The notes under the pieces were generated by a model. That model was not told where the DNA came from. It did no database searches and worked only from the letters and a program-made list of their open reading frames with translations. From Sphingomonas kaistensis (lineage in GTDB: Bacteria > Pseudomonadota > Alphaproteobacteria > Sphingomonadales > Sphingomonadaceae), in NCBI RefSeq assembly GCF_036884275.1, contig NZ_CP145607.1, positions 248,001-312,000 on the forward strand: DNA of 64,000 nt, written 5' to 3'. Shown piece by piece: positions 46,573-61,188 of this stretch. Made by a program: the position numbers and the translations under genes. Each line of letters opens with the position of its first letter. Within the stretch, counting starts at the first letter, position 1.

Positions 46573-46664
46573 GCCAGACTGGCACAGCCGCGATCCGCCC
46601 CTTTATCGCAACTGATCTTCGTTACTAAAGACGCGAATTGCTCTTTTCATCGACGGAGTCGTTC

Positions 46665-47261
46665 GTGCCCAACCTTGCCACCTTGGAACCTGCCGCGCCC
46701 GCCGAACATCCGGCGCGCGAGGAACGTCGCCCGGTTTCCCTGCCGGGCTGGCTGACCCGCCCCGGCCAGGAAGCCAAGGCGCATGACTTTGTCATCGACA
46801 ACATGTCCTACGGCGGGTGCCGGCTGCAAACCGCCGCCCCGCTGGAACGCGGTGACGCGGTCGATCTCACCGTGCTTCGCCGCGGCGCTATCCCCGGCGT
46901 GGTGCGCTGGCACAATGCTTACGGGATCGGCGTGTCGTTCGCGCCCGAACTGCCCGAGCGGATCGAAACACCGCGCAAGGTCGAGCGGGTGCCGGTGCAG
47001 ACCGCGCTTGCCGTGCGCCAGACCGGCCGCCGCCCGCGCTCGGTGCCTGCGACCAACCTGTCGCGCTTCGGTTGCTGCCTCACCTTCGACGATCTGCCGG
47101 TCGCAGGCGAATGGGTGTGGGTCGCGATGCCCGGCCTGGCCCCGATCGAAGCGCGGGTGCGCTGGGCCGACGGGCGCCGCGCGGGGGTGGAGTTCGTCCA
47201 TCCCATCCACGCCTCGGTGCTCGACATGCTGCTTCAGCGCTGCGCGGCCGGCAACGCCTGA
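46665..47261 (+). CDS. Protein with two PilZ domains
   Basis: A 198-residue protein of two PilZ domains in tandem: the first has EERRPVSLPGWLTRPG and DNMSYGGCRL, the second KVERVPVQTALAVRQ and TNLSRFGCCLTF. PilZ domains bind cyclic di-GMP via RxxxR and (D/N)xSxxG; here the RxxxR parts are poorly kept, so binding is uncertain. The GTG at 46665 has GGAG six bases upstream. It converges on another PilZ gene with three bases between the stops. Confidence 0.82.
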   Translation: MPNLATLEPAAPAEHPAREERRPVSLPGWLTRPGQEAKAHDFVIDNMSYGGCRLQTAAPLERGDAVDLTVLRRGAIPGVVRWHNAYGIGVSFAPELPERIETPRKVERVPVQTALAVRQTGRRPRSVPATNLSRFGCCLTFDDLPVAGEWVWVAMPGLAPIEARVRWADGRRAGVEFVHPIHASVLDMLLQRCAAGNA

Positions 47262-47264
47262 TCG

Positions 47265-47633
47265 TCAGTCCGCGCCGCGCTCGGGCGCTCGCTCCTCCAG
47301 CCAGTCCGACAAGGGCGCCAGCCCGTCGACCAGCGGAAAGGCGACCCCCGCCTCGCGGCCCGACACCCAGCGCAATTCGCCCTTGATCGGCGGCAGGTCG
47401 GGGATCTGCAGGATCACCCGCTCGGCCGGCACGATCTGGCAGCCGGTGCGCAGTTTGACCCCGCCGTTCGACGCATTGTCGAGATAAGCGGCATATTGGC
47501 GATTGCCGATCCGCACCCGCACCGGGCAGCGCACCTCGCGCCGTTCGAACCGCCGCGGCTTGAACCCCTCGCCCCGACCCTCGCTCGCGTCCTCGGCCTC
47601 GAGGCCGGCGCGGACGATCTTCTCCATGAACAT
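47265..47633 (-). CDS. Single PilZ domain protein
   Basis: A 122-residue protein. It has a good cyclic di-GMP signature: RRFERREVRCPVRVRI supplies the RxxxR and DNASNGGVKLR the (D/N)xSxxG. The C-terminal strand WVSGREAGVAF matches the PilZ barrel. It could be a soluble c-di-GMP receptor affecting motility or surface polysaccharide. Confidence 0.85.
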   Translation of the reverse strand: MFMEKIVRAGLEAEDASEGRGEGFKPRRFERREVRCPVRVRIGNRQYAAYLDNASNGGVKLRTGCQIVPAERVILQIPDLPPIKGELRWVSGREAGVAFPLVDGLAPLSDWLEERAPERGAD

Positions 47634-47729
47634 GCCTTGGCCCCCTACAACCGAGCGGGCTCACCCTAAGCGCCAAGCCTTCAAGACAGGCTTGCCCATC
47701 ATGGTTAGCGAAGCCTTCCGAATTGGGAG

Positions 47730-48168
47730 CTACAGCTCCAGCGTCAGTGAGCCATGCACGGGAACCGCTGCCCATCGCGGGCCGAGCTCGTCCAGCCGCG
47801 CGCGAATGGCATCGACTTCTGCCTCGCTGACCGGCACCGCCGCATGGCCCCGCGCCGCGCAGGCATGCTCATAGGCCGCGATCAGCTCGCCTGCCGGTAC
47901 GCGCCCGCCCCACATCTCGGCCTGAAAGCATTCCACCAGCCGCTCGACCGCTTCCTCTTCCGCTCCGCCGCTGGTGGTGAACGCCGCCGGCGCTCCGTCC
48001 GCGACCATCCCGAGAAAGCCGTCCGACCACGCTTTCGACCGCATAATGCACCATATCGTGAGGGATGATCCCCTGCTTGGGGCAGTCGATCCGCTCGTCG
48101 GCGCGACCCTCGCGCTCGACCACCAGCGCGTCCATCTTGCCCGCGCCCTTGGTGAAGATCAGCCTCAG
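47730..48168 (-). pseudogene. Frameshifted conserved hypothetical gene, CTG start
   Basis: Two frames fit together as one protein: LRLIFTKGAGKMDALVVERE ... CPKQGIIPHDMVHYAVESVV from 48168, and SDGFLGMVADGAPAAFTTSG ... VERLVECFQAEMWGGRVPAG ending at 47730. The join near 48020 needs one base skipped in GTCGGACGG. The start codon is CTG, overlapping the GST stop as CTGA where ATGA would be expected; AAGG is seven bases upstream. I recall an uncharacterised sphingomonad family with this order. It may be decaying, a sequencing error, or (less likely) programmed. Confidence 0.65.
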
Positions 48169-48836
48169 AAATCGACCTTGTCGTAATGCTGCGGCGGGAC
48201 GATCACTTCCATCCGTTCGCCCAGCAACGGCCGGAACGCCGGCCGGCTTTTCATCACGCTGTACCAATCCTTGGTCTGCTTGTGCCCGCGCCAATCGACC
48301 GCGCCAAGATAGTCGATCACGCTAAGGTGCGCCGCGGCGGTGAAATCCGCGAGGCTCAGCGCCGGCCCGGCAAGCCAGCGACGATGGTCGAGCAAATAGT
48401 CGAGATAATCGAGGTGGTTGTTGCCCACCCGCATCGCGTCGCGCAGCACGCGCGTGTCGGGGCTTTCCTTGCTGACCAGGCGCTTCCTCATCCGCTCGAC
48501 CATCAGCGGCTCGACCACTTCGCGGAACAGCTTTTCATCGAACCATTCGGTCAGTCGCCGGATCTCCGCCCGCTGCGCCGCGTCGCCGTGGATCATCGGG
48601 ACCTTTTCCACCGTCTCCTCGAAATATTCGGCGATCGGCTGGCTGCCGATCAGGACGATGTTGCGCTCGGTCTCCACCAGCACCGGGGTCTCGCCCGCCG
48701 GATTGAGATCGACGAATTCGTCCCGCCGCTCCCACGGATTTTCGCGCACCAGTTCGGCCGGAACGCCCTTCTCGGCCATCACCAGCCGGACCTTGCGGGA
48801 AAAGGGACACAGGGGAAATTGCAGAAGCTGCCACAT
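48165..48836 (-). CDS. Glutathione S-transferase family protein
   Basis: A 223-residue GST. The thioredoxin-like N-domain begins MWQLLQFPLCPFSRKVRLVM, with CPFS at the active site, then DLNPAGETPVLV with the cis-Pro loop and IGSQPIAEYFEE. The helical C-domain has WLAGPALSLADFTAAAHLSV, the N-capping box. Cys-type active site suggests an Omega/Beta-like class. No ribosome-binding site is seen at the ATG. Confidence 0.9.
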   Translation of the reverse strand: MWQLLQFPLCPFSRKVRLVMAEKGVPAELVRENPWERRDEFVDLNPAGETPVLVETERNIVLIGSQPIAEYFEETVEKVPMIHGDAAQRAEIRRLTEWFDEKLFREVVEPLMVERMRKRLVSKESPDTRVLRDAMRVGNNHLDYLDYLLDHRRWLAGPALSLADFTAAAHLSVIDYLGAVDWRGHKQTKDWYSVMKSRPAFRPLLGERMEVIVPPQHYDKVDF

Positions 48837-48893
48837 GAGGAGAGGCTTTAACGCGGGTTCACCGAGGGGCAAGGCGAAGCTACAGCGTTTCGC

Positions 48894-49646
48894 ATGACCC
48901 GCCGAAAGAAGTCGCATCAATCCTCCCACGGCAGCGCCAATCGCCCGCGCTTCTGGGGCCGCCACGCCGTCGCCGCCGCGCTCGACAACCCTGATCGCCG
49001 GGTGCTGAAAGCCTGGGCGACGCAGGAAGCCACCACCTTCATGAACTTCCCGCCCGAGGTCATCCTGACCCGCGCCGAAGTCACCGATCTCGCCCGCCTG
49101 GTGCCGAACGACGCGCCGCATCAAGGCGTGGTAATCGAGGTCGAGCCGCTGGAAGACCTGTGGCTCGGCGACCTGCTGTCGGAAGCGGACGAGAAAGCCA
49201 CCCTTCTAGTGCTCGACCAGGTCACCGACCCGCATAACGTCGGCGCCATCCTCCGCTCCGCTGCCGCGTTCGGGGCGATCGGCATCGTTACCCAGGACCG
49301 GCACTCCCCTCCCGAAGGCGGCGCGCTGGCCAAGGCGGCCTCGGGCGCACTCGAGCGCGTGCCGTGGGTCCGCGTCGTCAATCTTGCCCGCGCGCTCGAC
49401 GAAATGGAAGAAGCCGGCTTCTGGCGCATCGGGCTTGCCGGCGACGCCAAATCGACGCTGGGCGAAGCGCTTGGGCCGAAACGGGTCGCGCTGGTGCTCG
49501 GCGCCGAAGGCCCGGGCATGCGGCAGAACGTGCGCGATCATTGCGACGCGCTGGCGAAACTGCCGATCACCGACGCGGTCGAAAGCCTCAACGTCTCCAA
49601 CGCCGCCGCCATCGCCCTCTACGCGGCGGCCGAGGCGGGGAAGTGA
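48894..49646 (+). CDS. rlmB: TrmH-family 23S rRNA (guanosine-2'-O)-methyltransferase RlmB
   Basis: A 250-residue SPOUT enzyme. The N-terminal substrate domain starts FWGRHAVAAALDN and reaches QGVVIEVEPL. The trefoil knot has LVLDQVTDPHNVGAILRSAA, ALVLGAEGPGMRQNV and ITDAVESLNVSNAAAIALYA. These are the RlmB motifs for G2251 methylation. Confidence 0.92.
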   Translation: MTRRKKSHQSSHGSANRPRFWGRHAVAAALDNPDRRVLKAWATQEATTFMNFPPEVILTRAEVTDLARLVPNDAPHQGVVIEVEPLEDLWLGDLLSEADEKATLLVLDQVTDPHNVGAILRSAAAFGAIGIVTQDRHSPPEGGALAKAASGALERVPWVRVVNLARALDEMEEAGFWRIGLAGDAKSTLGEALGPKRVALVLGAEGPGMRQNVRDHCDALAKLPITDAVESLNVSNAAAIALYAAAEAGK

Positions 49647-49662
49647 AGTCGTTCTCGCAAAC

Positions 49663-49731
49663 CTCGTTCGCCCTGAGCGAAGTCGAAGGGCGTGGCGCGA
49701 ACGTGCTTCGACTTCGCTCAGCACGAACGAG
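49663..49731. repeat. Extragenic palindrome, CTTCGACTTCGCTCAGG family
   Basis: Arms 49663-49693 (CTCGTTCGCCCTGAGCGAAG...) and 49701-49731 (...CTTCGACTTCGCTCAGCACG) are inverted, with two small internal mismatched pairs. It lies between rlmB and the glycosylase gene, whose open frame runs back into the repeat. Related to 29401-29473. Confidence 0.85.
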
Positions 49732-49742
49732 AGGGTAGAGAG

Positions 49743-50360
49743 GTGGTCCACACGCCCGAATCCCTCGCCCAAGGCATCGCCCACCTCACCGCGACCGAGC
49801 CCGCGCTCGCCGCCGCGGTTCAGCGTCACGGCCACCCCGAACCGCGCCAATCGGACCGCGGCACCGCCGCCCTGCTGCGCACCATTGTCGGCCAGCAGGT
49901 CAGCGTCGCCGCCGCCCAATCGATGTGGAACAGGCTCACCGCCGCCTACGGCGACCCGCCCGATCTCCACCGCCTCGCCGCCGCCACCGACGAAGAATTG
50001 CGCGCGCTCGGCCAGTCCCGCCAGAAAGCCGGCTACCTCCGCAGCCTCGCCACCCTCACCCTCTCGGGCGAGCTCGACCTCGACAATCTGCCGGCCGACA
50101 ACGAAGAAGCCATCGCCCTCCTCACCAAGGTCAAGGGCATCGGCCGCTGGTCGGCGGAAATCTATCTGCTGTTCGCCGAAGGCCGCGCCGACGTCTTTCC
50201 CGCCGGCGATCTCGCGGTGCAGATCGAACTCGGCCGGCTCCTCGGCACCGAAGGCAAGCCCGCCGAAAAATGGCTGCGCGAGCGGGCGGAAAGCTGGGCT
50301 CCCTACCGGGGTGCGGCCGCCGTGCTGGCGTGGCACAGCTACAATACCAAGGTCCTGTAG
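49743..50360 (+). CDS. DNA-3-methyladenine glycosylase II family protein
   Basis: A 205-residue HhH-GPD glycosylase of the AlkA/Mag1 type for alkylated bases. LLRTIVGQQVSVAAAQSMW, KVKGIGRWSAEIYLLFAEG (helix-hairpin-helix) and FPAGDLAVQIELGRL with the catalytic Asp are seen. The GTG at 49743 avoids translating the adjoining repeat; the longer frame begins inside it. The short form without an AlkA N-domain is typical. Confidence 0.9.
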   Translation: MVHTPESLAQGIAHLTATEPALAAAVQRHGHPEPRQSDRGTAALLRTIVGQQVSVAAAQSMWNRLTAAYGDPPDLHRLAAATDEELRALGQSRQKAGYLRSLATLTLSGELDLDNLPADNEEAIALLTKVKGIGRWSAEIYLLFAEGRADVFPAGDLAVQIELGRLLGTEGKPAEKWLRERAESWAPYRGAAAVLAWHSYNTKVL

Positions 50361-50369
50361 AAGAGCCCT

Positions 50370-50924
50370 ATGCCGCGCCACATCGTCGCCATCGGCGGAA
50401 CCACCCGCCCCGACAGCAGCACCGAACGCGTGCTGGCGCTCGCCGCCGAAGCGGCGCGCGGCGACGGCGCAGAGGTGCAGACGTTCGGCGGCGCCTACAT
50501 GGCGGGCCTGCCCCATTATCGCGGGCCCGACTGGACCCCCGACAAGGGCCGCGAGATGATCGATGCGGTCCGCGCCGCCGACGGCATCCTGCTCGCGACT
50601 CCCGGCTATCACGGCACCGTCTCGGGCATGGTCAAGAATGCGATCGACTATCTTGAGGAACTGGCGAATGACAGCCGCCCCTATCTCGAAGGCCGCCCGG
50701 TCGGCCTGATCGTCACCGCCTTCGGGCATCAGGCCGCGAACAGCTCGATGACCACCTTGCGCACCATCGCCCACGCCCTGCGCGGCTGGCCCACCCCGTT
50801 CGGCGCCGCGCTGAGGATCGGCCCCGACAGCTTCGACGCGCAAGGCCGCTTCCTCGACGACGACAGCGCCGCCCAGCTCCGCCTCGTCGGCACCCAGGTC
50901 GCCCACGCCGCCGGACGGCTTTGA
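50370..50924 (+). CDS. NADPH-dependent FMN reductase family protein
   Basis: A 184-residue flavodoxin-like protein: HIVAIGGTTRPDSSTERVL binds the FMN phosphate, ATPGYHGTVSGMVKNAIDYL contains the family signature, and LIVTAFGHQAANSS follows. May supply reduced flavin or act as quinone/chromate reductase. Nine bases after the glycosylase gene. Confidence 0.9.
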   Translation: MPRHIVAIGGTTRPDSSTERVLALAAEAARGDGAEVQTFGGAYMAGLPHYRGPDWTPDKGREMIDAVRAADGILLATPGYHGTVSGMVKNAIDYLEELANDSRPYLEGRPVGLIVTAFGHQAANSSMTTLRTIAHALRGWPTPFGAALRIGPDSFDAQGRFLDDDSAAQLRLVGTQVAHAAGRL

Positions 50925-51033
50925 GGGGTTGGGTCGTTCCCTTCGAGGAGCGAGGCGCACTGTTAGGGCGAGGAGCGGCGGGAAGGTGCCTGCCTCAGTC
51001 AGGTGTTTAGGTTGCGCGTGCCAGGTAGCTCTG

Positions 51034-51063
51034 AATGTCTGCTTTGGGTGGAAAGCGGACATT
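51034..51063. repeat. Short palindrome, AATGTCTGCTTT type
   Basis: AATGTCTGCTTT and AAAGCGGACATT with a six-base loop, one mismatch. This unit, translated in one frame as the NVCFGWKADI string, is a familiar scattered repeat of alphaproteobacterial genomes. A partial second copy is at 51497-51526. Confidence 0.75.
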
Positions 51064-51074
51064 GGCCGGGTGCG

Positions 51075-51473
51075 CTACTCTGGCTTTGAAACGCTCAGGA
51101 GCCTTTCGACAAGGACAGTCCTCGTCGCGTCACCAAGATACCGTTTCTGGTGTGGTCGCACACTGACACGGCCTACTATGCGAACTTTGAACGTCCCCCA
51201 CGGAGGCTCTGGCTTCCGCCAGTGAGCCACTTTTCTGGCTTCCGCATCCAGCTGCTCACACATACGCGCCATGCACTTGAGCGATGCGCCGTCATTCGCC
51301 GTTAGGAGACTTCGTCCGCCCGCCTTGCACTGCTCGAACCTGCTGTTCTCGAAGTTGGTGAACCACTCACAAATAAGGGTCTGTCGTGGTCCGAAAGCGA
51401 CGCCGTCCACGACAACGCCCCCGTTCGAAACTGGGGCCGTAACCGCCAAGGAAAGGACAATCGCGCTCCACAT
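51075..51473 (-). CDS. Possible small secreted protein, unknown
   Basis: A 132-residue frame from an ATG at 51473. The start (MWSAIVLSLAVTAPVSNGG) could be a weak signal peptide lacking an initial basic residue. Four Cys are present (ICEWFTN, QCKAGG, KCMARMCEQ). GC is lower than in the neighbours and no family is recognised. AAAGG stands too close to the ATG to be a normal ribosome-binding site. If it is not a gene, 50925-51569 is empty. Confidence 0.45.
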   Translation of the reverse strand: MWSAIVLSLAVTAPVSNGGVVVDGVAFGPRQTLICEWFTNFENSRFEQCKAGGRSLLTANDGASLKCMARMCEQLDAEARKVAHWRKPEPPWGTFKVRIVGRVSVRPHQKRYLGDATRTVLVERLLSVSKPE

Positions 51474-51496
51474 GCCTTTAACCTACAACGGGTTAG

Positions 51497-51526
51497 AACG
51501 TCCGCAATGGGTCGAAAGCAGACATC
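51497..51526. repeat. Partial second copy of the AATGTCTGCTTT palindrome
   Basis: AACGTCCGCAATGGGTCGAA AGCAGACATC resembles the unit at 51034-51063 with a diverged left arm. The two copies flank the 132-residue frame. Confidence 0.6.
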
Positions 51527-51569
51527 TGCCAATCGCCACGTGCGATCACGCTCCAGTCCGTCAGGCGGC

Positions 51570-51643
51570 TGGAGCGGGTGAAGGGAATCGAACCCTCGTC
51601 GTAAGCTTGGAAGGCTTCTGCTCTACCATTGAGCTACACCCGC
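51570..51643 (-). tRNA. tRNA-Gly (anticodon UCC)
   Basis: Read on the minus strand: acceptor GCGGGTG pairs with CACCCGC, D arm GCTCAATGGTAGAGC, anticodon loop CTTCCAA giving UCC, T arm AGGGTTCGATTCCCT, discriminator T and encoded CCA (51570-51572). 74 bases with CCA. No intron. Confidence 0.97.
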
Positions 51644-51805
51644 ATCCTGCGCGCGCGGCCAAACGGCCGGTCGTGCGACGATGCGGAAGCGATTGGCACG
51701 ACTGTGGCAAGCTGGTCAACATCGACCTTGCAGATACGGTCAATCTTGACTGGCGATTTCACCATGATCTCGACATCGCCAAGATCGGTTTGCAGCGCAC
51801 GACAA

Positions 51806-53407
51806 TCACCAAGTGTGGCTGCCGAGCGATCGACGATCGTGAGGCGCCGGCGGCGCCGACGGATCGACCCGCAGAAGCGCATGGCCTCCCGCGGCGAATA
51901 GCTCACGCGTGTAGCGCGCGCGCCAATCACTGAAGCGTGGACCCGGGTTCCAGATGCGATAGTCCGCCGGAGTCGCGACCAGGAAACGCTCGCCTCCTGT
52001 CCTTGGCACATGGTCGAGGGCGTAGACGGACCGTCCACTCAACAGGACGAGCGGCATGGCGGTTTCGGGCGCCAACGCCTCGATCCGGGCGGTCGCTGGC
52101 AGATCGGCGACCAATTGCGCCTGCTTCTTCTGGACCATGGCGTCGAACCCCGGAGACTGACCGGACGCCGCATAGCGGGGACTCATGCCCATGAACTGAT
52201 AGGCGAGAATGACGCTGTCACCGACCACCAGGGCCCTGACGTTGCCTGCAAGCGAGCCGACGAACGCGACCAGCACCAGGACGTGCAGCAGTGTTCGGGT
52301 CCGGCGCTGCCGATGGCTATTGAACCAGTCGAGCAGGACGAGAATGCCGCCGGTCCACAGGCAGGCTGTCGCAGGCCACAGGTAGCGCAGGTGGGGAATC
52401 GGCGCCCGCAGCAACCATGCCAGCCACATGGTCCCGCCGATGACGATCAACAGCGCGACAAGATCGTTGCCGCGGACACCCTCGTCACTCCTCGGGACGG
52501 TGCGGCGGAACAGCCAGAACAGAGCGATCCCTGCGATAAGAAGAAGTGGGAAATGCCCGTTGGCGATTTCCATCGTTTCGAGCAGGTACGGCAGGGTGCG
52601 AACGGTGTGCGCGCCAGTCGCGGCCCCGAGAAGCGTGGCCTCGCGCTCCCCCAGCCCGCCGCCCCCAAACCAGTAATGACACGCGATAATGGTTCCAGCT
52701 ACTAGAATGGCGACCACCACGGTGAGAGCAGCACGGCGCCACCTCGCCCAGTCGCCCTTGTGATAAACCAGAACGAACAGCCCAAAGCCGCCGAGCGCCG
52801 CCAGGAGATTGACCCGGGTCGCGCAGGCAAGGCCGAACAGAAGCCCGGAAACCAGCGCCGCCGAAGCCGAATGGCGGCCACGCCAGGTCCAATGCGCGGT
52901 CGACGCCAACAGCAGTGCGAACGCCATCAGCTCGCCCAAGGCGAGACTTGCCTGCAGCAGGATGCCCGGCGTCGCGGCCAATAGTAAGGTTCCGGCAAGC
53001 GCCAGGCTGTGATCGCTGCCCGCCGCGCGAAAGACCCGAAAGCCAAGCAGGAGCATGGCCAGGCTGGCCGCGATCGTGATCGTGCGATGCGCGAGAATGT
53101 CGAGGCTGAACAGCGCGAGGAGACCGTGCGTGATCAGGTGCAGTCCGCCGGTGGTGATGGTCGGAACGCCGGTCGCGATGGTCTGAGGTACCCGGACGCC
53201 CCAGGTTTCTGCCGTGCTAAGAAGGATCCACGCCTCGTCCGGCTCCACCGACAGCCGCAGACTTGCGGCGAACCAGCTCGTCACCAGCACGGCGAGCGCG
53301 GCGACGTACAGGTGGTTGAAGCCGATCCTGCTTTTCGGCTCGGCCGCGGACTGCGAGGCCAAATCATCAAAGCCGCCAGGGTCGCTGGCTGCTGTTACCG
53401 TGTTCAC
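51806..53407 (-). CDS. GT-C fold membrane glycosyltransferase (ArnT/PMT-like), putative
   Basis: A 533-residue protein with about 11 hydrophobic segments. The first luminal loop has SLRLSVEPDEAWILLSTAET, the acidic DE motif of GT-C enzymes that use polyprenyl-phosphate sugars. A soluble C-terminal domain of about 130 residues follows (from FMGMSPRYAASG). The GTG at 53407 has GGGGGA eight bases upstream. Divergent from an aminotransferase/GT2/acetyltransferase operon that could make its donor. Substrate unknown. Confidence 0.75.
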   Translation of the reverse strand: MNTVTAASDPGGFDDLASQSAAEPKSRIGFNHLYVAALAVLVTSWFAASLRLSVEPDEAWILLSTAETWGVRVPQTIATGVPTITTGGLHLITHGLLALFSLDILAHRTITIAASLAMLLLGFRVFRAAGSDHSLALAGTLLLAATPGILLQASLALGELMAFALLLASTAHWTWRGRHSASAALVSGLLFGLACATRVNLLAALGGFGLFVLVYHKGDWARWRRAALTVVVAILVAGTIIACHYWFGGGGLGEREATLLGAATGAHTVRTLPYLLETMEIANGHFPLLLIAGIALFWLFRRTVPRSDEGVRGNDLVALLIVIGGTMWLAWLLRAPIPHLRYLWPATACLWTGGILVLLDWFNSHRQRRTRTLLHVLVLVAFVGSLAGNVRALVVGDSVILAYQFMGMSPRYAASGQSPGFDAMVQKKQAQLVADLPATARIEALAPETAMPLVLLSGRSVYALDHVPRTGGERFLVATPADYRIWNPGPRFSDWRARYTRELFAAGGHALLRVDPSAPPAPHDRRSLGSHTW

Positions 53408-53531
53408 GCTTTCGATCCCCCAGGTCCCGGGCCTTTATCCAAAGCCTCTCCAACCCGCGCAAGAGCCCCAGCCGTCATCATTGTCTTAACCATATTGCTT
53501 CTATAGCCCTCCCGATTGGGGGAGTAGAGGA

Positions 53532-54767
53532 ATGCCGCAAAGCTCAGGCGCGCGATTTCAGTTCGATCGCCGGTCTGTCGAAGACCAGAATCCGGCGGCA
53601 ACTGCGCGCGCCGCTCCCGTCCCGTTCAACCGCCCGTCGCTCGTCGGCCGCGAACTCGACAATATCGCGGAAGCGATCCGGCGCGGGCAGCTGTCGGGCG
53701 ACGGCCATTTCACTGCCGAATGCAATGCCATCATCGCCCGGCTGACCGGGTCCGCCTCCGCGCTCCTCACGCACAGCGGCACGGCAGCGCTCGAAATGGC
53801 TGCCATCCTGTGTGACCTGAAACCCGGCGACGAGGTCATCCTTCCGTCCTTCACCTTCGTGTCGACCGCCAATGCAGTGGTGCTTCGCGGCGCGACCCCG
53901 GTCTTCGTCGACATCGATCCCCGCACGCTGAACCTCGATCCATCCAAGGTCGCCGATGCGGTCGGCCCGCGAACGCGAGCGATCTTCGCCGTCCATTATG
54001 CGGGCTTTCCGGCGGACATGGACGCGCTCGCCCAAATCGCCGACGCGCACGGCTTGCTGCTGGTCGAGGATGCCGCGCAGGCGCTCGGTTCGTTCTACAA
54101 GGGCAGGCCGGCCGGCAGCCTCGGCGATCTCGGCGCGTTCAGCTTTCACGAAACCAAGAATATCCTGAGCGGGGAAGGCGGCGCCCTCACGCTCAACACG
54201 CCCGTCCTCGTCGATCGCGCCCGCATCATCCGCGAGAAGGGGACCAATCGCAGCCAGTTCATCGACGGTCTGGTCGACAAATACACCTGGGTAGACCTCG
54301 GCTCCTCCTATCTTCCAGGAGAACTTATCGCTGCCTTCCTTCACGGGCAGCTGGAACGTGTCGACGAGGTAACCCGGCGGCGGCGGCAATTGTTCGCCCG
54401 CTATTTCCAAAGCTTCGCAGCGCTTCCGTCGCGACATGGCATCGACCTTCCGCGCTGGAGCGCGGAGGTGCAGGGCAATGGACACATGTTCTACCTCCTG
54501 CTGCGGAGCGCGGCCCAGCGGAGCGCCTTTATCGCGGCCATGCGCGAGGAAGGTATTGGGACGCCGTTCCATTACGTCCCGCTTCATTCGTCGCCGGGCG
54601 GCCAGCGCTTCGGGCGGAGTGCCGGCGGAATGGAGCATACCGACAGGACTGCCGAGCGGCTGGTTCGGCTGCCGATGTTCTTCGACCTCGAAGACGAGAT
54701 TGAACGGGTGATCGACATCTGCCTGCGGGTCGTGAGAAAGCTGGATGGATCCGGCGCGACATGCTGA
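53532..54767 (+). CDS. DegT/DnrJ/EryC1-family sugar aminotransferase, WecE/RffA-like
   Basis: A 411-residue PLP enzyme. VPFNRPSLVGRELDNIAEAI and GQLSGDGHFTAECNAIIA match the start of WecE (dTDP-4-amino-4,6-dideoxygalactose transaminase). THSGTAALEMAA, GDEVILPSFTFVSTANAV, VEDAAQALGS and the PLP Lys in SFHETKNILSGEGGAL are visible. The likely product is dTDP-Fuc4N. About 30 residues precede the family start. Overlaps the GT2 gene by seven bases. Confidence 0.9.
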   Translation: MPQSSGARFQFDRRSVEDQNPAATARAAPVPFNRPSLVGRELDNIAEAIRRGQLSGDGHFTAECNAIIARLTGSASALLTHSGTAALEMAAILCDLKPGDEVILPSFTFVSTANAVVLRGATPVFVDIDPRTLNLDPSKVADAVGPRTRAIFAVHYAGFPADMDALAQIADAHGLLLVEDAAQALGSFYKGRPAGSLGDLGAFSFHETKNILSGEGGALTLNTPVLVDRARIIREKGTNRSQFIDGLVDKYTWVDLGSSYLPGELIAAFLHGQLERVDEVTRRRRQLFARYFQSFAALPSRHGIDLPRWSAEVQGNGHMFYLLLRSAAQRSAFIAAMREEGIGTPFHYVPLHSSPGGQRFGRSAGGMEHTDRTAERLVRLPMFFDLEDEIERVIDICLRVVRKLDGSGATC

Positions 54768-55705
54768 TCAGCGTCGTTTCTCCCGTTTACAATTGCACCC
54801 GCTGTCTTCCGGAAATCGTCCGGCGGGTGCGTGAAACCCTCGACGGACAGGACTTGCGCTGGGAAGTCTTGTTCGTGGACGATCGCGGACCGGGCGAACC
54901 CTGGCCGGTAATCGAGGCGCTCGCGGCCGCAGACGAGCGGGTGCGCGGCGTGCGACTGATGCGCAATCACGGCCAGCACCTCGCCATCTGGGCCGGCCTG
55001 GCGCACGCCCGTGGCGATTGGGTGGCGGTGATCGATTGCGACCTGCAGGACGATCCCGCGATGTTGCTGCAAATGGTCGACGTGGCACGGGAAGGAAATT
55101 GCGACGCCGTCATCGTCGATCGGGGTGAATGGCGCGACAGCCGGTGGCGCCGGGCCGCCTCGCGCCTGTTCACTGTATTTCTCCGCGCCATCACGGGCAT
55201 GAAAGTCGGAGTGAACGCCGGCAACTTCGGCCTCTACAGCCGGCGCATGGTCGAAAACTTGCTGTCCTTTCGCGACAAGGAGGTTTTCCTGCCCGCGATG
55301 ACGGTGATGACGGGTCTGGAGCGGCGATCCCTGGTCGTCCCACGCGCAGCGCGGGCGGAAGGGCGTTCATCCTACGGTCTTGGCCAATTGCTGCGCCTGG
55401 CCGTGGCACTGATCATCCGCTTCTCCGACCGGCCGCTGAAGCTCAGCGTGCTCGCGGGCTTGCTCCTGTCGGGTCTATCGGCCGGTATCGCGCTGGTCGT
55501 CTTTGTCGCTTGGGCGTCAGGCGCGATCACGGTGGCCGGCTGGACCAGCCTGATGCTGTCGATCTGGTTCGTCGGCGGACTGATCCTGTCGGCGCTCGGC
55601 GTGCACGGTTTCTACATCGGCCGCATCTTTACCGAAGTGCAGGATCGCCCTCGGATTCGGGTCATGGAAACGACAGCCAATTTGATGCCGGCGGAACGCC
55701 TTTGA
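54761..55705 (+). CDS. GT2 polyprenyl-phosphate glycosyltransferase (GtrB/ArnC/DPM1-like)
   Basis: A 314-residue protein. The GT-A domain has SVVSPVYNCTRCLPEIVR, FVDDRGPGE, LMRNHGQHLAIWAGLAHARG and VIDCDLQDDPAML (DxD-like). The NAGNFGLYSRRMVE segment and AEGRSSYGLGQLLRLA followed by two membrane helices (about 230-300) are the marks of GtrB/ArnC enzymes that load undecaprenyl phosphate on the cytoplasmic face. It should take the amino sugar made by its neighbours. Confidence 0.88.
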   Translation: MLISVVSPVYNCTRCLPEIVRRVRETLDGQDLRWEVLFVDDRGPGEPWPVIEALAAADERVRGVRLMRNHGQHLAIWAGLAHARGDWVAVIDCDLQDDPAMLLQMVDVAREGNCDAVIVDRGEWRDSRWRRAASRLFTVFLRAITGMKVGVNAGNFGLYSRRMVENLLSFRDKEVFLPAMTVMTGLERRSLVVPRAARAEGRSSYGLGQLLRLAVALIIRFSDRPLKLSVLAGLLLSGLSAGIALVVFVAWASGAITVAGWTSLMLSIWFVGGLILSALGVHGFYIGRIFTEVQDRPRIRVMETTANLMPAERL

Positions 55706-56484
55706 CTGATACTGCGATTGCCGGCGCGGGTACCGCAGCGGCGCGTGAAGGCTGGCGCCCGAGCGAGCTCGAGAGCCGGCGTTTCGGAGTGACGTTCGGA
55801 ATTCTGGACACCGCTGGCGGTGAACATGATTGGCGGAAAGCGGTTGCCTCGGCCGATCAGGCCGGCGTGCATGTGCTGTCTGCGCGCGTCGATGGGAATG
55901 AGATCAGGCATATCCAGGAACTGGAGGCCCTCGGCTTTCGCCTGGTCGATACGTTGGTCTACCATCGCCATTTGCTCCCGGCACCGACGTCATCAATGCG
56001 CGGTGCGGAGAGCGAGGCGGCGGACGTGCGGTTCCTGGATCGGCACGACGCCGAAGCTTGCAGCACGATCGCGCGCGCTGCGTTCGATAAATATCTCGGG
56101 CGCTACCACGCCGACCCGCGCCTTTCCGACACGGCGGCAACCGACGCCTATGCCGACTGGGCGGGGCGGTTGTTATCCGAGCCCGACGACGGAAGGCTGG
56201 CGCTTGGCGCGATCGAAGCCGGCCGCCTGACGGGCTTCATCGTCGGCGGCCGGCCCGACCCTCAAACGAGCGAGATCATTCTCAACGCGGTCGACCCTGC
56301 AGACCAAGGGCGAGGGACCTACCGACGTCTCCTCGATGCCTATGTCTCCCATGCTTCGACCCGGGGTGCCGAGCGGGTCATCACGTCCACGCAATTGCGG
56401 AATGTCCGTGTCCAGAGCATCTGGGCCGATGCCGGCTTTCGGCTTTATCGAAGCGTATCAACCCTGCATCGATGGGCCGACTAA
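55702..56484 (+). CDS. GNAT N-acetyltransferase, WecD-like
   Basis: A 260-residue protein. The N-terminal domain starts at SELESRRFGVTFGILDTAGG, like WecD (dTDP-fucosamine acetyltransferase), and the C-terminal GNAT domain has the acetyl-CoA loop VDPADQGRGTYRRLLDAYV and then RNVRVQSIWADAGFRLYRS. It probably acetylates the 4-amino group of the WecE product. The TTG at 55702 overlaps the GT2 stop (TTGA) and has GGA six bases upstream. The open frame runs much further 5' but inside the GT2 gene. Confidence 0.85.
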   Translation: MTDTAIAGAGTAAAREGWRPSELESRRFGVTFGILDTAGGEHDWRKAVASADQAGVHVLSARVDGNEIRHIQELEALGFRLVDTLVYHRHLLPAPTSSMRGAESEAADVRFLDRHDAEACSTIARAAFDKYLGRYHADPRLSDTAATDAYADWAGRLLSEPDDGRLALGAIEAGRLTGFIVGGRPDPQTSEIILNAVDPADQGRGTYRRLLDAYVSHASTRGAERVITSTQLRNVRVQSIWADAGFRLYRSVSTLHRWAD

Positions 56485-56554
56485 AAGCCCGATCGCGCTA
56501 CGATGCGCGTCGATTGGCACGACACGTTGGCCTCTGCTCGACACTCTAGCGCCG

Positions 56555-57946
56555 TCAGCGCGCCCAATTCCCGCCAAGCGCCCGGAACAGATCGATCTGC
56601 GCGCTCGCGATCCTCGCGTCGCTGTCGGCCAGCGCGGCCTCCGCATCGGCAAAGGTGCGCTCGGCGTCGAGTAGTTCGAGCGAGCTGATCTGTCCTTCGC
56701 GCTGCAAGGCTCGCACGCGGCGGACCACCGCTTCGGCCTGGCCCTGCGCCGCGGCCAGCGCGGTGCGCCGCTCCTGCGCGCGCTGGTACGCCGACAGCGC
56801 GGTCTCGGTCTCCTGCAGCGCGGTCAGCACGCTGCCGTCGAACTGCGCCAGCGCGGCCTGCGTATCGGCCTCGGCCACCGCGACCCGGGCCCGGGCGGCG
56901 GAGCGGTTGACGGTCCAGTTGAGCAGGGGCCCGACCAGCCAGCTGACCGGATTGAACAGGTTGGTGAGGCTCGTCCCGCTGCCCCCCGCCGACCCGCCCA
57001 GCGTGATGCGGGGATAAAGGTCGGCGGTGGCAACCCCGATCCGCGCGGTGGCGGCGGCCAGCCGGCGCTCGGCGGCGCGAACATCGGGGCGGCGCGCAAG
57101 CAGGCCCGCGCCGTCGCCGACCGGAATCGGTTGCTGGAGGTCGAGCGCACTGACCCGCGCCGCGGCAATCGCCGGCAATTCGCGCGGCACCCGCCCGGTC
57201 AGGGTCGCGAGCCGCAGCAGCGCCGCCGTCCGCTCGGCCTCGAGCAAAGGCACCTCCGCCCGGCGCTGGTCGCGCAAGGCGGCGATCCGCGCGGTGTCGA
57301 GCCCGGTCGCAAGCCCCACCACCCGCCGCCGCTCGGTTAGGGTCAGCGAGCGGTCGAGCAAGGCGACGATTCGCTCCGCCACCGCGATCCGCTCCGCCGC
57401 CGACGCCGCGTCCGCATAAGCGCGCGTCGTATCGGCCACCACCAGCACCCGCACCGCATCGGCATCGAACGCCGCCGCCGCCGCATCGCCGCGCGCCGCT
57501 TCAACCGACCGACCGATCCGCCCCGCGAAATCTACTTCGTAAGCGACGCTCAGCCCCGCATCGAGCTGAAGGTCGGTCCCACCCTGCCCCGCCGCGATGG
57601 CCTGCGGCGAACGGCCGGCCTGCGCCCCGGCGCTCACCCCTATCTGCGGTTCGCGCGCCGCCCGGCTTTCGCGCAGCAGGGCGCGGGCACGCTGCAATCG
57701 CGCGGTCGCCAAGCGGACGTCGGTGTTGGCCGCCAGCGCATCGGCGACCAGCCCGTCGAGAACCGGATCGCGGTACAATCGCCACCACTCGCCGGCGGGC
57801 GCGGCGGTGGTGACCAGCGGCGTCGCCGAGCCGAGGAACGGCGCCGCCGCCGCGCCCGCCACCGGCCGCGCGGCATAATCGGAGCCGCTGGCGCAGGCCG
57901 CGAGGGCAAGCGCGGAGGCGGCGACGAGCATCACTCGCTTGAACAT
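56555..57946 (-). CDS. Outer-membrane factor of an RND efflux system (NodT/OprM family)
   Basis: A 463-residue outer-membrane lipoprotein. The lipobox is LALAACASG. The two OEP repeats are visible from WWRLYRDPVLDGLVADALAA to the C-terminus, including RRPDVRAAERRLAAATARIG and LYPRITLGGSAG. The ATG at 57946 is chosen: AGGAG is seven bases upstream. An in-frame ATG at 57961 overlaps the RND stop as ATGA. Third gene of the efflux operon. Confidence 0.94.
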   Translation of the reverse strand: MFKRVMLVAASALALAACASGSDYAARPVAGAAAAPFLGSATPLVTTAAPAGEWWRLYRDPVLDGLVADALAANTDVRLATARLQRARALLRESRAAREPQIGVSAGAQAGRSPQAIAAGQGGTDLQLDAGLSVAYEVDFAGRIGRSVEAARGDAAAAAFDADAVRVLVVADTTRAYADAASAAERIAVAERIVALLDRSLTLTERRRVVGLATGLDTARIAALRDQRRAEVPLLEAERTAALLRLATLTGRVPRELPAIAAARVSALDLQQPIPVGDGAGLLARRPDVRAAERRLAAATARIGVATADLYPRITLGGSAGGSGTSLTNLFNPVSWLVGPLLNWTVNRSAARARVAVAEADTQAALAQFDGSVLTALQETETALSAYQRAQERRTALAAAQGQAEAVVRRVRALQREGQISSLELLDAERTFADAEAALADSDARIASAQIDLFRALGGNWAR

Positions 57947-57957
57947 GGACGAACTCC

Positions 57958-60900
57958 TCATTCCGCCGGCAGCGGAGCCGGGGGTGCCGCCGTCCGACCA
58001 GCGCGCAGGCGGCCGATCCGCTCGGCCAATCCGCGGCAGACGACATAGAAAGTGGGGGTGAAGATCAGCCCGAACGCGGTCACGCCGAGCATTCCGAAGA
58101 ACACCGCCGTGCCCAGCGCCTGGCGAAGCTCCGCCCCCGCGCCTTCCGCGATCAGCAACGGCACCGAGCCGAGGATGAAGGCGAAGCTGGTCATCAGGAT
58201 CGGCCGCAACCGGTCGCGCGCCGCCCGGATCGCGGCCTCGACCGGCGACATGCCCGCGGCCTCGTCCTGCTGGGCGAACTCGACGATCAGGATCGCGTTC
58301 TTGGCCGCAAGCGCGATCAGCACCACCAGGCCGACCTGCGTCAGGACATTATTGTCCATGCCGCGCAGATTGACCCCCGCCATTGCCGCCAGCAAACACA
58401 TCGGCACGATCAGGATGATCGCCAGTGGCAGCACCAGGCTTTCGAACTGCGCCGCCAGCACCAGGAACACGAACAGCACCGCCAGCGCGAACACCAGGGT
58501 CGCCGTGCTTCCCGCCGCCTTCTCCTGATACGCGATGCCGGTCCACTCACTGCGGAAGCCCGCTGGCAGCTGCGCCGAGGCGATGTCTTCCATCGCTTTC
58601 AACGACTGGCCGGACGAGAAACCGGGCGCCGTGTCACCGTCGATCTCGACCGCTGGGAAACCGTTGTAGCGCGACACGCGATACGGGCCGGTGCGGTCCT
58701 CGAAGGTGGTGACCGATCCGATCGGCACCATCGCGCCCGAATTGGACCGGGCCCTCAAGTTCGCGATATCCGCCTCGCTCGCCCGCGCATCGGCTTCCGC
58801 CTGCGCGGTCACCCGGTAGGTCCGGCCAAGCAGGTTGAAGTCGTTGACGAACGCCGAACCGAGATAAACCTGCAGCGCCTCGAAGATCCGCTCGGGCGGT
58901 ACGCCCAGCATGTCGGCCTTGGCCCGGTCGACATCGGCGAACACCCGCGGGGTCGAGATATCGAACAGGGTGTAGACTTGGCGCAGGCCCTCCGTCTGGT
59001 TGGCCTTGCCGATGATCCCCCACGACAGCCCCGACAATTCGGCGAAGCTGTGCCCGCCCGTATCCTGCACGATCATCCGGTAGCCACCGGCCGAGCCGAT
59101 ACCCTGGATGAGAGGCGGCGGAATGATCAGCAGGCGCGCTTCGTTGATGTCGGCGGTGCGCTTCTGCGCTTCGGCCATGATGGTGTTGAGATCGGCGCCG
59201 AGCTTCTTGCGCTCCTCGAACGACTTCAAGGGCACATAAGCGGCGGCGGCATTAGGTGCCTGGGTCTGCGACGCGCCGTCGAAGCCCGCCAGCATCACCG
59301 TCCCCTCGACGCCCTTGATCGGCAGGATCCGGTCGGCGACCTTGCGCAGCACCTCGTCGGTGCGCTCGAGCGACGATCCGGGCGGCAATTGCACCACGGT
59401 CAGGAAATAGCCCTGATCCTGCGCCGGGATGAAGCCGGTCGGCGTGATCGAGAACAGCCCTACGGTCAGCGCGATCAGCACCGCATAAGCCGCCATCATC
59501 CGCTTGGGCGCGGCGACAAGCCGGCGGGTCAGCCGGGCATAAGCCTCGCTGAATCGCTCGAACATCCGGTTGAAGGCGTCGCCGGCGCGGGTGGCGAAGG
59601 CGGCGAGGCGATTCTTCGGCGGCTCATGCCCGTGCGGCTTCAGGAGCAGCGCGGCCATCGCCGGCGACAGCGTCAGCGACAGCAGTAGCGAAATCAGCGT
59701 CGCCGCCGAAATCGTCACCGCGAACTGGTGATAGAAGGCGCCCGACAGCCCGTTCAGGAACAGGGTTGGCAGGAACACCGCGCACAGCACCAGCACGATT
59801 GCCACCAGCGCGCCCGCTACCTCGTCCATCGAGGTGCGCGCGGCGTCCAGCGCGGTCATGCCCTTGGCAAGATTGCGCTCGACATTCTCGACCACCACAA
59901 TCGCGTCATCGACCACGATGCCGATCGCCAGCACCAGCCCGAACAGCGACAGGTTGTTGAGCGAATAACCGACCATCTGCAGCACCGCGAAGGTGCCGAT
60001 CAGCGACACGGGAATGGCAATCACCGGCACCACCGCCGCCCGCCAGCGCTGGAGAAAGACGATGATCACCAGCACGACCAGCAGGATCGCCTCGAACAGG
60101 GTCTTGCCGACCTCGTCGATCGATTGGGCGATGAATTCGGTGGGGTTGTAGATGACCTTATATTCGAGACCCTTGGGAAAGGACTTCGACGCCGACTCCA
60201 TCTCCTGCTTGACCAGTTCGGCGGCGGCCAGCGCGTTGGAGCCCGGGCGCTGGAACACGCCCAAGAGCACGGTCGGCTCGCCCGACAGATAGGTGTTGGA
60301 GGCATAGTCCGCGGCGCCGAGCTCGACCCGCGCGACGTCCGACACCCGCACCTGCCGGCCGTCGGGATCGCTACGGATGATGACGTTGGCGAATTGCTGC
60401 GGGTCGGTCAGCCGGCCCTGCGTTTCGACATTGAGCTGATAGGCCGCGCCCGTCGCATACGGCGGTTGGCCGAGCGTGCCGGCGGCGACCTGGACGTTCT
60501 GGGCGCGCAGCGCGGCGACGATCTCGCCCGCGGTGAGGTTGAGCGCGGCGGCGCGGTCGGGATCGATCCACACCCGCATCGCATAATCGCGCGCGCCGAA
60601 CAGCTGCACGTCGCCGACGCCTTCGAGCCGCGCCAGCCGGTCGCGGACCTGGGTCAGCGCATAGTTCGACATATAGCCGCGATCGAGCGAGCGGTCGGGC
60701 GACACCAGGTTCACGACCATCAGGAAGTCGGGCGACGTCTTTCGGGTAATGACGCCCAGCCGCTGCACTTCCTGCGGCAGGCGCGGGGTGGCGACCGCGA
60801 CGCGGTTCTGCACCAGCACCTGCGCGGCGTTGAGGTCGGTGCCTTGGCGGAAGGTGACCGTGATGGTCAGCCGTCCGTCACCGGTCGATTGCGACGACAT

Positions 60901-61137
60901 GTAGATCATGTTGTCGACGCCGTTGATCTCCTGCTCGATCGGCGCGGCGACGGTTTCCGAAACTGTCTCGGCCGAAGCGCCGGGATAGCTGGCGTTGACC
61001 GTCACCGTCGGCGGCACGATGTCCGGATATTGCGACACCGGCAGGCCGAAATAGGCGATGGCGCCCATCACGGTGATCAGAACCGCGATCACCGCCGCGA
61101 AGATCGGGCGCGTGATAAAGAAGCGTGACAAACGCAT
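57958..61137 (-). CDS. RND multidrug efflux permease (HAE1 family, AcrB/MexB-like)
   Basis: A 1059-residue inner-membrane proton/drug antiporter with 12 membrane segments. The start MRLSRFFITRPIFAAVIAV is standard; TM4 carries the proton-relay aspartates in GIVVDDAIVVVENVERNLA. The pore segments SYPGASAETV and PPGSSLERTD are present. GGGGAGA is six bases before the ATG. Between adaptor and outer-membrane genes. Confidence 0.97.
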   Translation of the reverse strand: MRLSRFFITRPIFAAVIAVLITVMGAIAYFGLPVSQYPDIVPPTVTVNASYPGASAETVSETVAAPIEQEINGVDNMIYMSSQSTGDGRLTITVTFRQGTDLNAAQVLVQNRVAVATPRLPQEVQRLGVITRKTSPDFLMVVNLVSPDRSLDRGYMSNYALTQVRDRLARLEGVGDVQLFGARDYAMRVWIDPDRAAALNLTAGEIVAALRAQNVQVAAGTLGQPPYATGAAYQLNVETQGRLTDPQQFANVIIRSDPDGRQVRVSDVARVELGAADYASNTYLSGEPTVLLGVFQRPGSNALAAAELVKQEMESASKSFPKGLEYKVIYNPTEFIAQSIDEVGKTLFEAILLVVLVIIVFLQRWRAAVVPVIAIPVSLIGTFAVLQMVGYSLNNLSLFGLVLAIGIVVDDAIVVVENVERNLAKGMTALDAARTSMDEVAGALVAIVLVLCAVFLPTLFLNGLSGAFYHQFAVTISAATLISLLLSLTLSPAMAALLLKPHGHEPPKNRLAAFATRAGDAFNRMFERFSEAYARLTRRLVAAPKRMMAAYAVLIALTVGLFSITPTGFIPAQDQGYFLTVVQLPPGSSLERTDEVLRKVADRILPIKGVEGTVMLAGFDGASQTQAPNAAAAYVPLKSFEERKKLGADLNTIMAEAQKRTADINEARLLIIPPPLIQGIGSAGGYRMIVQDTGGHSFAELSGLSWGIIGKANQTEGLRQVYTLFDISTPRVFADVDRAKADMLGVPPERIFEALQVYLGSAFVNDFNLLGRTYRVTAQAEADARASEADIANLRARSNSGAMVPIGSVTTFEDRTGPYRVSRYNGFPAVEIDGDTAPGFSSGQSLKAMEDIASAQLPAGFRSEWTGIAYQEKAAGSTATLVFALAVLFVFLVLAAQFESLVLPLAIILIVPMCLLAAMAGVNLRGMDNNVLTQVGLVVLIALAAKNAILIVEFAQQDEAAGMSPVEAAIRAARDRLRPILMTSFAFILGSVPLLIAEGAGAELRQALGTAVFFGMLGVTAFGLIFTPTFYVVCRGLAERIGRLRAGRTAAPPAPLPAE

Positions 61138-61188
61138 GGATGTTCTCCCCGCCCGGCGCGTGGCCGGGCGGCTGGAAGGAAAAGATGT

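Follow-up and report, generated by a model that had tools for sequence, protein, structure and literature searches.

In three-component glycosylation systems, a cytoplasmic enzyme charges polyprenyl phosphate with one sugar, which a glycosyltransferase of the GT-C type then transfers outside. An excerpt of PMC11127046 describes this for the Gtr systems of Shigella and Salmonella and for the ribofuranose system of Citrobacter youngae, and gives an Asp near the first membrane helix as the proposed catalytic residue of the GT-C enzyme. The current study concerns a four-gene locus of Sphingomonas kaistensis, located in a 64 000-nucleotide stretch (the window; contig NZ_CP145607.1, positions 248 001 to 312 000) of a single-contig genome of 2,789,997 bases. 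The locus encodes a transaminase, a family 2 glycosyltransferase (GT2), an acetyltransferase of the GNAT family and a membrane protein of predicted GT-C fold. A GT2 of the predicted lipid-phosphate type and a GT-C enzyme are encoded together, the pairing expected of a three-component system. With moderate confidence, the locus is best explained as a three-component periplasmic glycosylation cassette of the Gtr/Arn-like kind, acquired horizontally and carrying sugar-nucleotide enzymes of its own. Its product is probably 4-acetamido-4,6-dideoxygalactose on undecaprenyl phosphate (Und-P-Fuc4NAc). The features of the locus, in window coordinates, are as follows.

51806..53407, minus strand: membrane glycosyltransferase, integral, of predicted GT-C fold; 533 amino acids (aa), GTG start, divergent from the other three genes, D57/E58 past the first membrane helix.
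53408..53531, no strand: intergenic region between the divergent GT-C gene and the three-gene operon, presumed regulatory; from open reading frame (ORF) coordinates.
53532..54767, plus strand: putative WecE-type dTDP-4-keto-6-deoxyglucose 4-aminotransferase; 411 aa, from curated NCBIfam models and solved-structure matches.
54761..55705, plus strand: ArnC/GtrB-type GT2, predicted polyprenyl-phosphate amino-sugar transferase; 314 aa, from Pfam PF00535 and PDB matches.
55702..56484, plus strand: putative GNAT N-acetyltransferase of WecD fold; 260 aa, TTG start inferred, from Foldseek and hhalign.
51808..56488, no strand: extent of the cassette in common with genome G166; blastn, 83.6 % DNA identity, 4682 aligned bases.
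51570..51643, minus strand: tRNA-Gly (tcc), in the flank and outside the cassette, about 165 bases off the left end of the shared block.

A preliminary description of this DNA had placed four genes here, three of them overlapping end to end and the GT-C gene divergent, and the ORF listing for positions 46000–62000 agrees. The transaminase and GT2 genes overlap by 7 bases and the GT2 and GNAT genes by 4, and 124 bases separate the start of the GT-C gene from that of the transaminase gene. The TTG at 55702 is our choice of GNAT start, the mechanical ORF being longer. Both this TTG and the GTG of the GT-C gene are retained in G166. A sigma-70 consensus promoter was looked for in the GT-C/transaminase intergenic region and was not found.

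The transaminase scores above both curated NCBIfam cut-offs for WecE (PRK11706, 525.5 bits against 375; TIGR02379, 480.5 against 434.85), and no other sugar pathway was assigned to it by search, in keeping with the WecE-like assignment first made from the letters. It is 50 % identical to WecE of Escherichia coli K-12 over 366 positions. The closest solved relatives are PDB entries 6blg (E value 1.1e-115) and 4piw (1.1e-113), the next lying at 1.5e-64. Both are named dTDP-4-amino-4,6-dideoxygalactose transaminase, and the aligned part of 4piw reads like K-12 WecE. An active-site lysine, aspartate and glutamine are named for the WecE-type enzyme in an excerpt of PMC7439462; with the residue classes taken from that source and the positions from the alignment with E. 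coli WecE, they correspond to K209, D180 and Q183, and a GTNRSQF segment is also conserved. The product is most likely the galacto form, dTDP-Fuc4N, as far as sequence comparison can tell.

The GT2 had been described as GtrB/ArnC-like, and the elements expected of such an enzyme were all found. It contains a PF00535 domain (3.3e-26), a D92/D94 motif and two hydrophobic segments near the C-terminus (at 226 and 258), and residues 3–304, nearly its full length, match solved ArnC (9bhc, E value 4.4e-41) and sll0501 (1.9e-38). Identity to E. coli ArnC is 30 %, and the score of 146.5 misses the cut-off of 529 for the curated ArnC equivalog PRK10714. The GT-C protein matched no Pfam family. Its predicted model nevertheless matches GT-C enzymes, ArnT first, with the ArnT match spanning model residues 28–518. 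The acidic residues D57/E58 follow a model helix at 24–51; they belong to the PDEA loop pointed out earlier (residues 56–59) and are invariant in 23 aligned sequences. The structural model thus indicates a GT-C fold, as had been proposed for this divergent membrane enzyme.

For the GNAT protein, an AlphaFold2 model built from 11 sequences (mean predicted local distance difference test score 86.6) has WecD (2fs5) as its top Foldseek match in the PDB (E value 4.9e-16; template-modelling score 0.85 on the target), the next entry lying at 2.3e-12. Profile comparison with E. coli WecD by hhalign gives an E value of 1.6e-14. Judged by its modelled fold, which is that of WecD along the entire chain, and by context, the protein may work like WecD. 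It is not filed as WecD because it scores below the curated cut-offs; the earlier WecD-like label stands as to fold, but not as to those models.

The proposed mechanism begins with RmlA and RmlB, encoded elsewhere, which would make dTDP-4-keto-6-deoxyglucose. The WecE-type transaminase would convert this to a dTDP-4-amino-4,6-dideoxyhexose, most likely dTDP-Fuc4N, and the WecD-fold GNAT would acetylate dTDP-Fuc4N to dTDP-Fuc4NAc. The GT2 would then load the sugar onto a polyprenyl phosphate carrier, undecaprenyl phosphate being the likeliest. The lipid-linked sugar would be turned over by a flippase that the cassette does not encode (either of two GtrA proteins from other parts of the genome is a possibility), and the GT-C enzyme would hand it to an acceptor on the periplasmic side. 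It had been suggested at the outset that the set makes dTDP-Fuc4NAc or a relative, loads it and transfers it; the families, folds and co-inheritance of the genes fit, and the sugar and the lipid loading are predictions from sequence.

Precursor can be supplied from elsewhere in the genome, where rmlA, rmlC, rmlB and rmlD are clustered at about 1853.8–1857.9 kb (G000:C1), each above one curated cut-off. RmlB was above the cut-off in 11 of the 15 genus genomes tested, including all three that carry the cassette. GtrA is a candidate flippase. One of the two GtrA genes in this genome (L099, G000:C1:467000-479000) lies near a clear GtrB-like GT2, in a region conserved at about 85 % DNA identity in G166 and in a further carrier, G169; the other (L100, G000:C1:1609500-1621500) lies near a weak ArnC match. 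As GtrA occurs in 15 of 15 genomes sampled, its presence is no evidence of a flippase for the cassette. The enterobacterial common antigen (ECA) pathway was rejected because WecF was found in none of the three carrier genomes, while the E. coli control was found. This agrees with the earlier statement that the other ECA genes are absent as far as WecF is concerned, the sole one on which the test rested.

Within the genus, the cassette is inherited as a unit. Searches with the GT-C protein (E value 1e-10 or below) and with the transaminase (1e-80 or below) match the same three of 71 genus genomes, namely the window's own, G166 and G169. G166 holds all four genes, with 75 to 93 % protein identity. 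Its DNA matches window positions 51808 to 56488 at 83.6 % identity, with no long flank match, such that the ends of the shared block coincide with the ends of the module and the flanks are unrelated. In G169, the match covers 51808–55685 (82.6 % identity) and includes all of the genes except that for GNAT. A finer DNA comparison of the window with the carriers added short matches only. Pairwise ratios of non-synonymous to synonymous substitution (dN/dS) between the window and G166 are 0.30 for the GT-C gene, 0.17 for the transaminase, 0.08 for the GT2 and 0.33 for GNAT, values that indicate purifying selection on each of the four. The condition set earlier, that the GT-C gene should be co-conserved with the other genes, is borne out by the three shared genus genomes, by the whole set in G166 and by a Myxococcales contig, described below, in which the four are adjacent.

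The neighbouring genes are unrelated to the cassette. The left-hand genes encode a protein of the DNA glycosylase type and an FMN reductase; those on the right encode an outer membrane efflux protein and an AcrB-type pump together with its membrane-fusion protein. Seven of ten genus genomes have a relative of the right-hand efflux gene (E value 1e-60 or below), and the far side of this relative was retrieved for four of the seven (G166, G169, G205 and G214), in which the relatives are 83–86 % identical. Cassette DNA was matched in none of these four stretches, and G166 and G169 carry the cassette elsewhere. The efflux gene relatives lack the cassette beside them, and the cassette therefore sits in different places. 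The 3' end of the efflux gene (56555 in the window; L103–L105 in the relatives) is a variable spot; in the window, the cassette comes next and tRNA-Gly (tcc) after it. A tRNA gene lies within about 50 bases past the efflux gene in three of the four relatives (Asn twice, Gly-ccc once), and none was found in the fourth. Neither an exact empty site nor tRNA-directed insertion is claimed, since the tRNAs of the relatives differ from the Gly-tcc of the window.

At the level of the family, GT2 was matched at an E value of 1e-70 or below in one of 397 sampled genomes, the window's own, in a draw that cannot have included the carriers G166 and G169. A class draw of 385 genomes likewise yielded the window's own alone at this threshold. 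Separately, 7996 candidates were scored, of which 463 were GT2 relatives at 1e-40 or below. The WecE-type gene was found at 1e-80 or below in five of 149 family genomes. GNAT was full-length in its own genome only, the matches in the other 33 of the 34 matching genomes (of 149) being weak and partial. The rarity of the GT2, WecE-type and GNAT genes in the family points to acquisition from outside, and the cassette seems to pass from one genome to another as a whole. A phage-borne cassette was considered and rejected: viral contigs were scanned, and no relative could be confirmed for GNAT (4 pattern matches) or for the GT-C protein (26), distant relatives being possible.

Relatives beyond the genus were sought with the GT-C protein in 84,980 genomes, one per species, a sampling that may leave out near relatives of the window. 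Five loci were found. In four of them, from Myxococcales, Deltaproteobacteria (two) and Burkholderiales, genes for a DegT transaminase and a GT2 homologue lie no more than 10 kb away. In the Myxococcales contig (L046), transaminase (47 % identity), GT2 (41 %), GNAT (37 %) and GT-C (28 %) are encoded consecutively and on the same strand. The two deltaproteobacterial contigs (L045 and L047) encode a transaminase (51 and 54 %) and a GT2, with the GT-C gene divergent from the latter. In Burkholderiales (L044), GT-C is accompanied by a GtrII-like protein, another DegT transaminase, an overlapping GT2 and a WxcM-like protein containing hexapeptide and FdtA domains. A GT-C family profile matches the L045, L046 and L047 proteins, without which it was built, at E values of 7.7e-57 to 1.2e-64; the other 12 of the 15-protein set gave 0.046 or worse. 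For two GT-C/GT2 pairs (P0008/P0044 and P0010/P0049) the source and the length of the longest contig are shared, which suggests linkage.

Plasmid scans covered 72,556 records. GT2 (E value 1e-40 or below) was found in four of them: a close pair in Pseudorhodobacter and Ruegeria (57 and 58 % identity), both with a WecE-type gene (61 %), and two from Vibrio harveyi at 33 %. GNAT was found in one record, that of Pseudorhodobacter, and the GT-C protein in none at an E value of 1e-5. On the Pseudorhodobacter plasmid, a gene annotated as GtrA overlaps the GT2 homologue and would supply the flippase that the window cassette is without. In both of these Rhodobacterales plasmids (L005:5494-10950, Pseudorhodobacter; L006:3044-7899, Ruegeria), the WecE-type gene and close GT2 are joined by a membrane protein of about 500 residues, with 6 and 8 hydrophobic segments respectively. 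These two proteins, encoded beside the transaminase, are related to each other (4e-60); no kinship to the window GT-C was detectable by sequence and no Pfam family matched. They possibly represent another GT-C family and are not counted here as GT-C. Plasmid relatives of the transaminase in Jannaschia, Azospirillum and Neorhizobium showed no GNAT or GT-C homologue in the surrounding stretch. The last two have a GT2 homologue at 31–32 % identity, and in Azospirillum a 527-residue protein without a Pfam match adjoins the transaminase.

The N-acylating gene appears to be exchanged amongst these relatives, which carry a GNAT, a hexapeptide transferase or a GT2 with a fused amino-acid-ligase domain. 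In G169, from which GNAT is missing, the GT2 is adjoined by a convergent gene for a hexapeptide acyltransferase, which scores 39.8 bits for Hexapep (cut-off 27) and 51.2 against 160.8 for the NeuD/PglB/VioB model. Such a replacement is as expected if the slot is one for N-acylation. In Ruegeria, the GT2 is followed by a protein that just reaches the cut-off for Hexapep (27 of 27). In the deltaproteobacterial contigs, the GT2 (L045:7543-9750 and L047:7591-9759, both minus strand) is fused to a C-terminal L-amino-acid-ligase domain, with LAL_C2 in both and ATP-grasp in L045 only, and the fused region of L045 matches the solved L-amino acid ligase 3vot at 8.1e-16. This fusion suggests an amino-acylated 4-amino sugar. 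In both contigs, a gene for an FAD-type oxidoreductase lies between the fused GT2 and the WecE-type transaminase.

The Burkholderiales locus (L044:9974-16082) points in another direction. The top solved match of its transaminase is 7b0d (1.1e-93), with QdtB at 5.3e-80 and WecE at 3.2e-21, and its WxcM-like protein resembles the WxcM-like 4mzu (6.9e-130) and dTDP-ketoisomerases. This variant suggests a 3-acetamido-3,6-dideoxyhexose version of the system. The simplest common thread is a dTDP-amino-dideoxyhexose that would be N-decorated before loading. It is quite possible, and is proposed here tentatively, that these loci form an undescribed class of mobile 'amino-sugar Gtr' cassettes across Alphaproteobacteria, Myxococcales/Deltaproteobacteria and Burkholderiales. 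An ArnC-type GT2 and a GT-C enzyme would be inherited together with a dTDP-amino-dideoxyhexose transaminase, and the decorating enzyme (GNAT, hexapeptide transferase, GT2-fused amino-acid ligase or WxcM-type ketoisomerase-acetyltransferase) would be swapped like a cartridge, each strain showing a different surface N-acyl amino sugar.

A number of results weigh against a complete Fuc4NAc cassette. GNAT falls well below the NCBIfam WecD cut-offs (45.2 bits against 219, and 28.4 against 195.1), shares 23 % identity with E. coli WecD across 199 positions, and has Trp241 at the column of WecD Tyr208, the proposed general acid. Sequence kinship between the GT-C protein and E. coli ArnT was not detected (hhalign E value 0.31). 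With ArnT scoring -10.6 bits against the GT-C family profile as well, membership of ArnT by sequence was rejected. In a second structural alignment, a protein O-mannosyltransferase, chain B of yeast Pmt1-Pmt2 (6p25_B), has the highest Z score, 23.9, in a tie with ArnT (23.2). None of the four genes encodes a flippase. The fifth GT-C locus, in Chromatium (L043), has no transaminase or GT2 at an E value of 1e-4 in the 13 kb around it. Finally, 16 WecE-type loci were compared (12 of 13 class matches and four of five family matches, the window's own left out of each). A GT2 homologue lies in the surrounding region of eight (28 to 37 % identity to the window GT2), and window-type GT-C or GNAT in none of the 16 at 1e-5; on its own, the WecE-type gene shows no tie to the set.

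The same architecture could handle another sugar, with a gluco amine (dTDP-Qui4N, viosamine) or a non-acetyl acyl group, and deliver Qui4NAc or another N-acyl 4-amino-4,6-dideoxyhexose. Enzyme names do not settle the configuration, because TIGR02379 is itself titled 'dTDP-4-amino-4,6-dideoxy-D-glucose transaminase', and the departure of GNAT from WecD at Tyr208 would suit a different substrate, as would the apparent swapping of the acyl enzyme amongst relatives, including the ligase domain of the two deltaproteobacterial contigs. However, the two nearest relatives of known structure, well clear of all others, are both named galactose transaminases, and the top fold match of GNAT is WecD. The model for DesI, the product of which is gluco-configured, scores 171.9 against a cut-off of 650. 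Another sugar is considered unlikely.

The GT-C enzyme could also transfer to protein, as a PMT-like O-glycosyltransferase, and not to a glycan or lipid. This overlaps with a three-component cassette and would fill in its acceptor. The top Z score of the Pmt1-Pmt2 chain favours it, in a near tie with ArnT, and we regard it as quite unlikely. The GT2 and GT-C may also be uncoupled, with the GT2 loading another membrane acceptor and the GT-C using a lipid-linked sugar from another chromosomal set. Both GtrA genes elsewhere in the genome, with their neighbouring clear or weak GT2 matches, would allow for this, and the Chromatium homologue stands without the other genes. Against it, four of the five GT-C loci retain transaminase and GT2 homologues close by, and co-inheritance holds in three of three genus carriers, so that uncoupling seems decidedly unlikely. 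That the locus is a non-functional acquired fragment, decayed or silent, is highly improbable: rarity in the family (GT2 and transaminase), the missing GNAT of G169 and the failure to find a promoter would agree with it, but all four frames are open, with dN/dS of 0.08 to 0.33, and the catalytic residues of the transaminase are intact.

If a three-component cassette for Fuc4NAc is indeed present, this sugar, or a close relative, would be delivered singly from a lipid phosphate, as are glucose and Ara4N, and not only within polymer repeats as in ECA. With a portable 4.7 kb set for the synthesis and placement of an amino sugar, surface glycans would be easier to predict from genome sequences. 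Such a set could also account for some of the surface variation between environmental bacterial strains, and would be a compact source of enzymes for glycan work.

That no described pathway with this exact gene set is known, as stated in the preliminary description, held in a search of titles and the beginnings of abstracts, in which subscription journals are thinly covered: no paper on the set was found. The Gtr/Arn-like plan is known, and what is new relative to the literature searched is its combination with genes for dTDP-amino-sugar synthesis as a mobile cassette. The prophage O-antigen cassette yfdGHI of E. coli K-12 is likewise a small set that pairs a GtrB-type GT2 with a serotype-specific membrane glycosyltransferase. 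Its translocase gene yfdG, which encodes GtrA, has no counterpart in the window cassette, which has sugar-synthesis genes instead. The Gtr and ribofuranose systems resemble the locus in the charging of polyprenyl phosphate with one sugar, the external GT-C and the Asp near the first helix. According to the same excerpt (PMC11127046), they add glucose, galactose or pentofuranoses, whereas the window cassette includes a dTDP-amino-sugar transaminase and an N-acetyltransferase and has no flippase gene.

With ECA, as an excerpt of PMC7439462 and the E. coli locus present it, the cassette would share the WecE and WecD steps and the RmlA/RmlB supply. It differs in lacking WecF, in a predicted single-sugar lipid phosphate as opposed to a trisaccharide on pyrophosphate, and in a GT-C enzyme in place of Wzy polymerization. 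The Arn system (ArnB-ArnC-ArnA-ArnD-ArnT-ArnE-ArnF at the E. coli K-12 locus) is the closest known amino-sugar plan, with a transaminase, an N-acylated sugar, an ArnC-type GT2 and a GT-C of ArnT fold. No ArnA, ArnD or ArnE/F is encoded among the four cassette genes, and the GT-C is unrelated to ArnT by sequence. Going by product names, Arn follows a UDP-pentose route in which ArnD removes a formyl group, whereas the window cassette would follow a dTDP-hexose route with acetylation.

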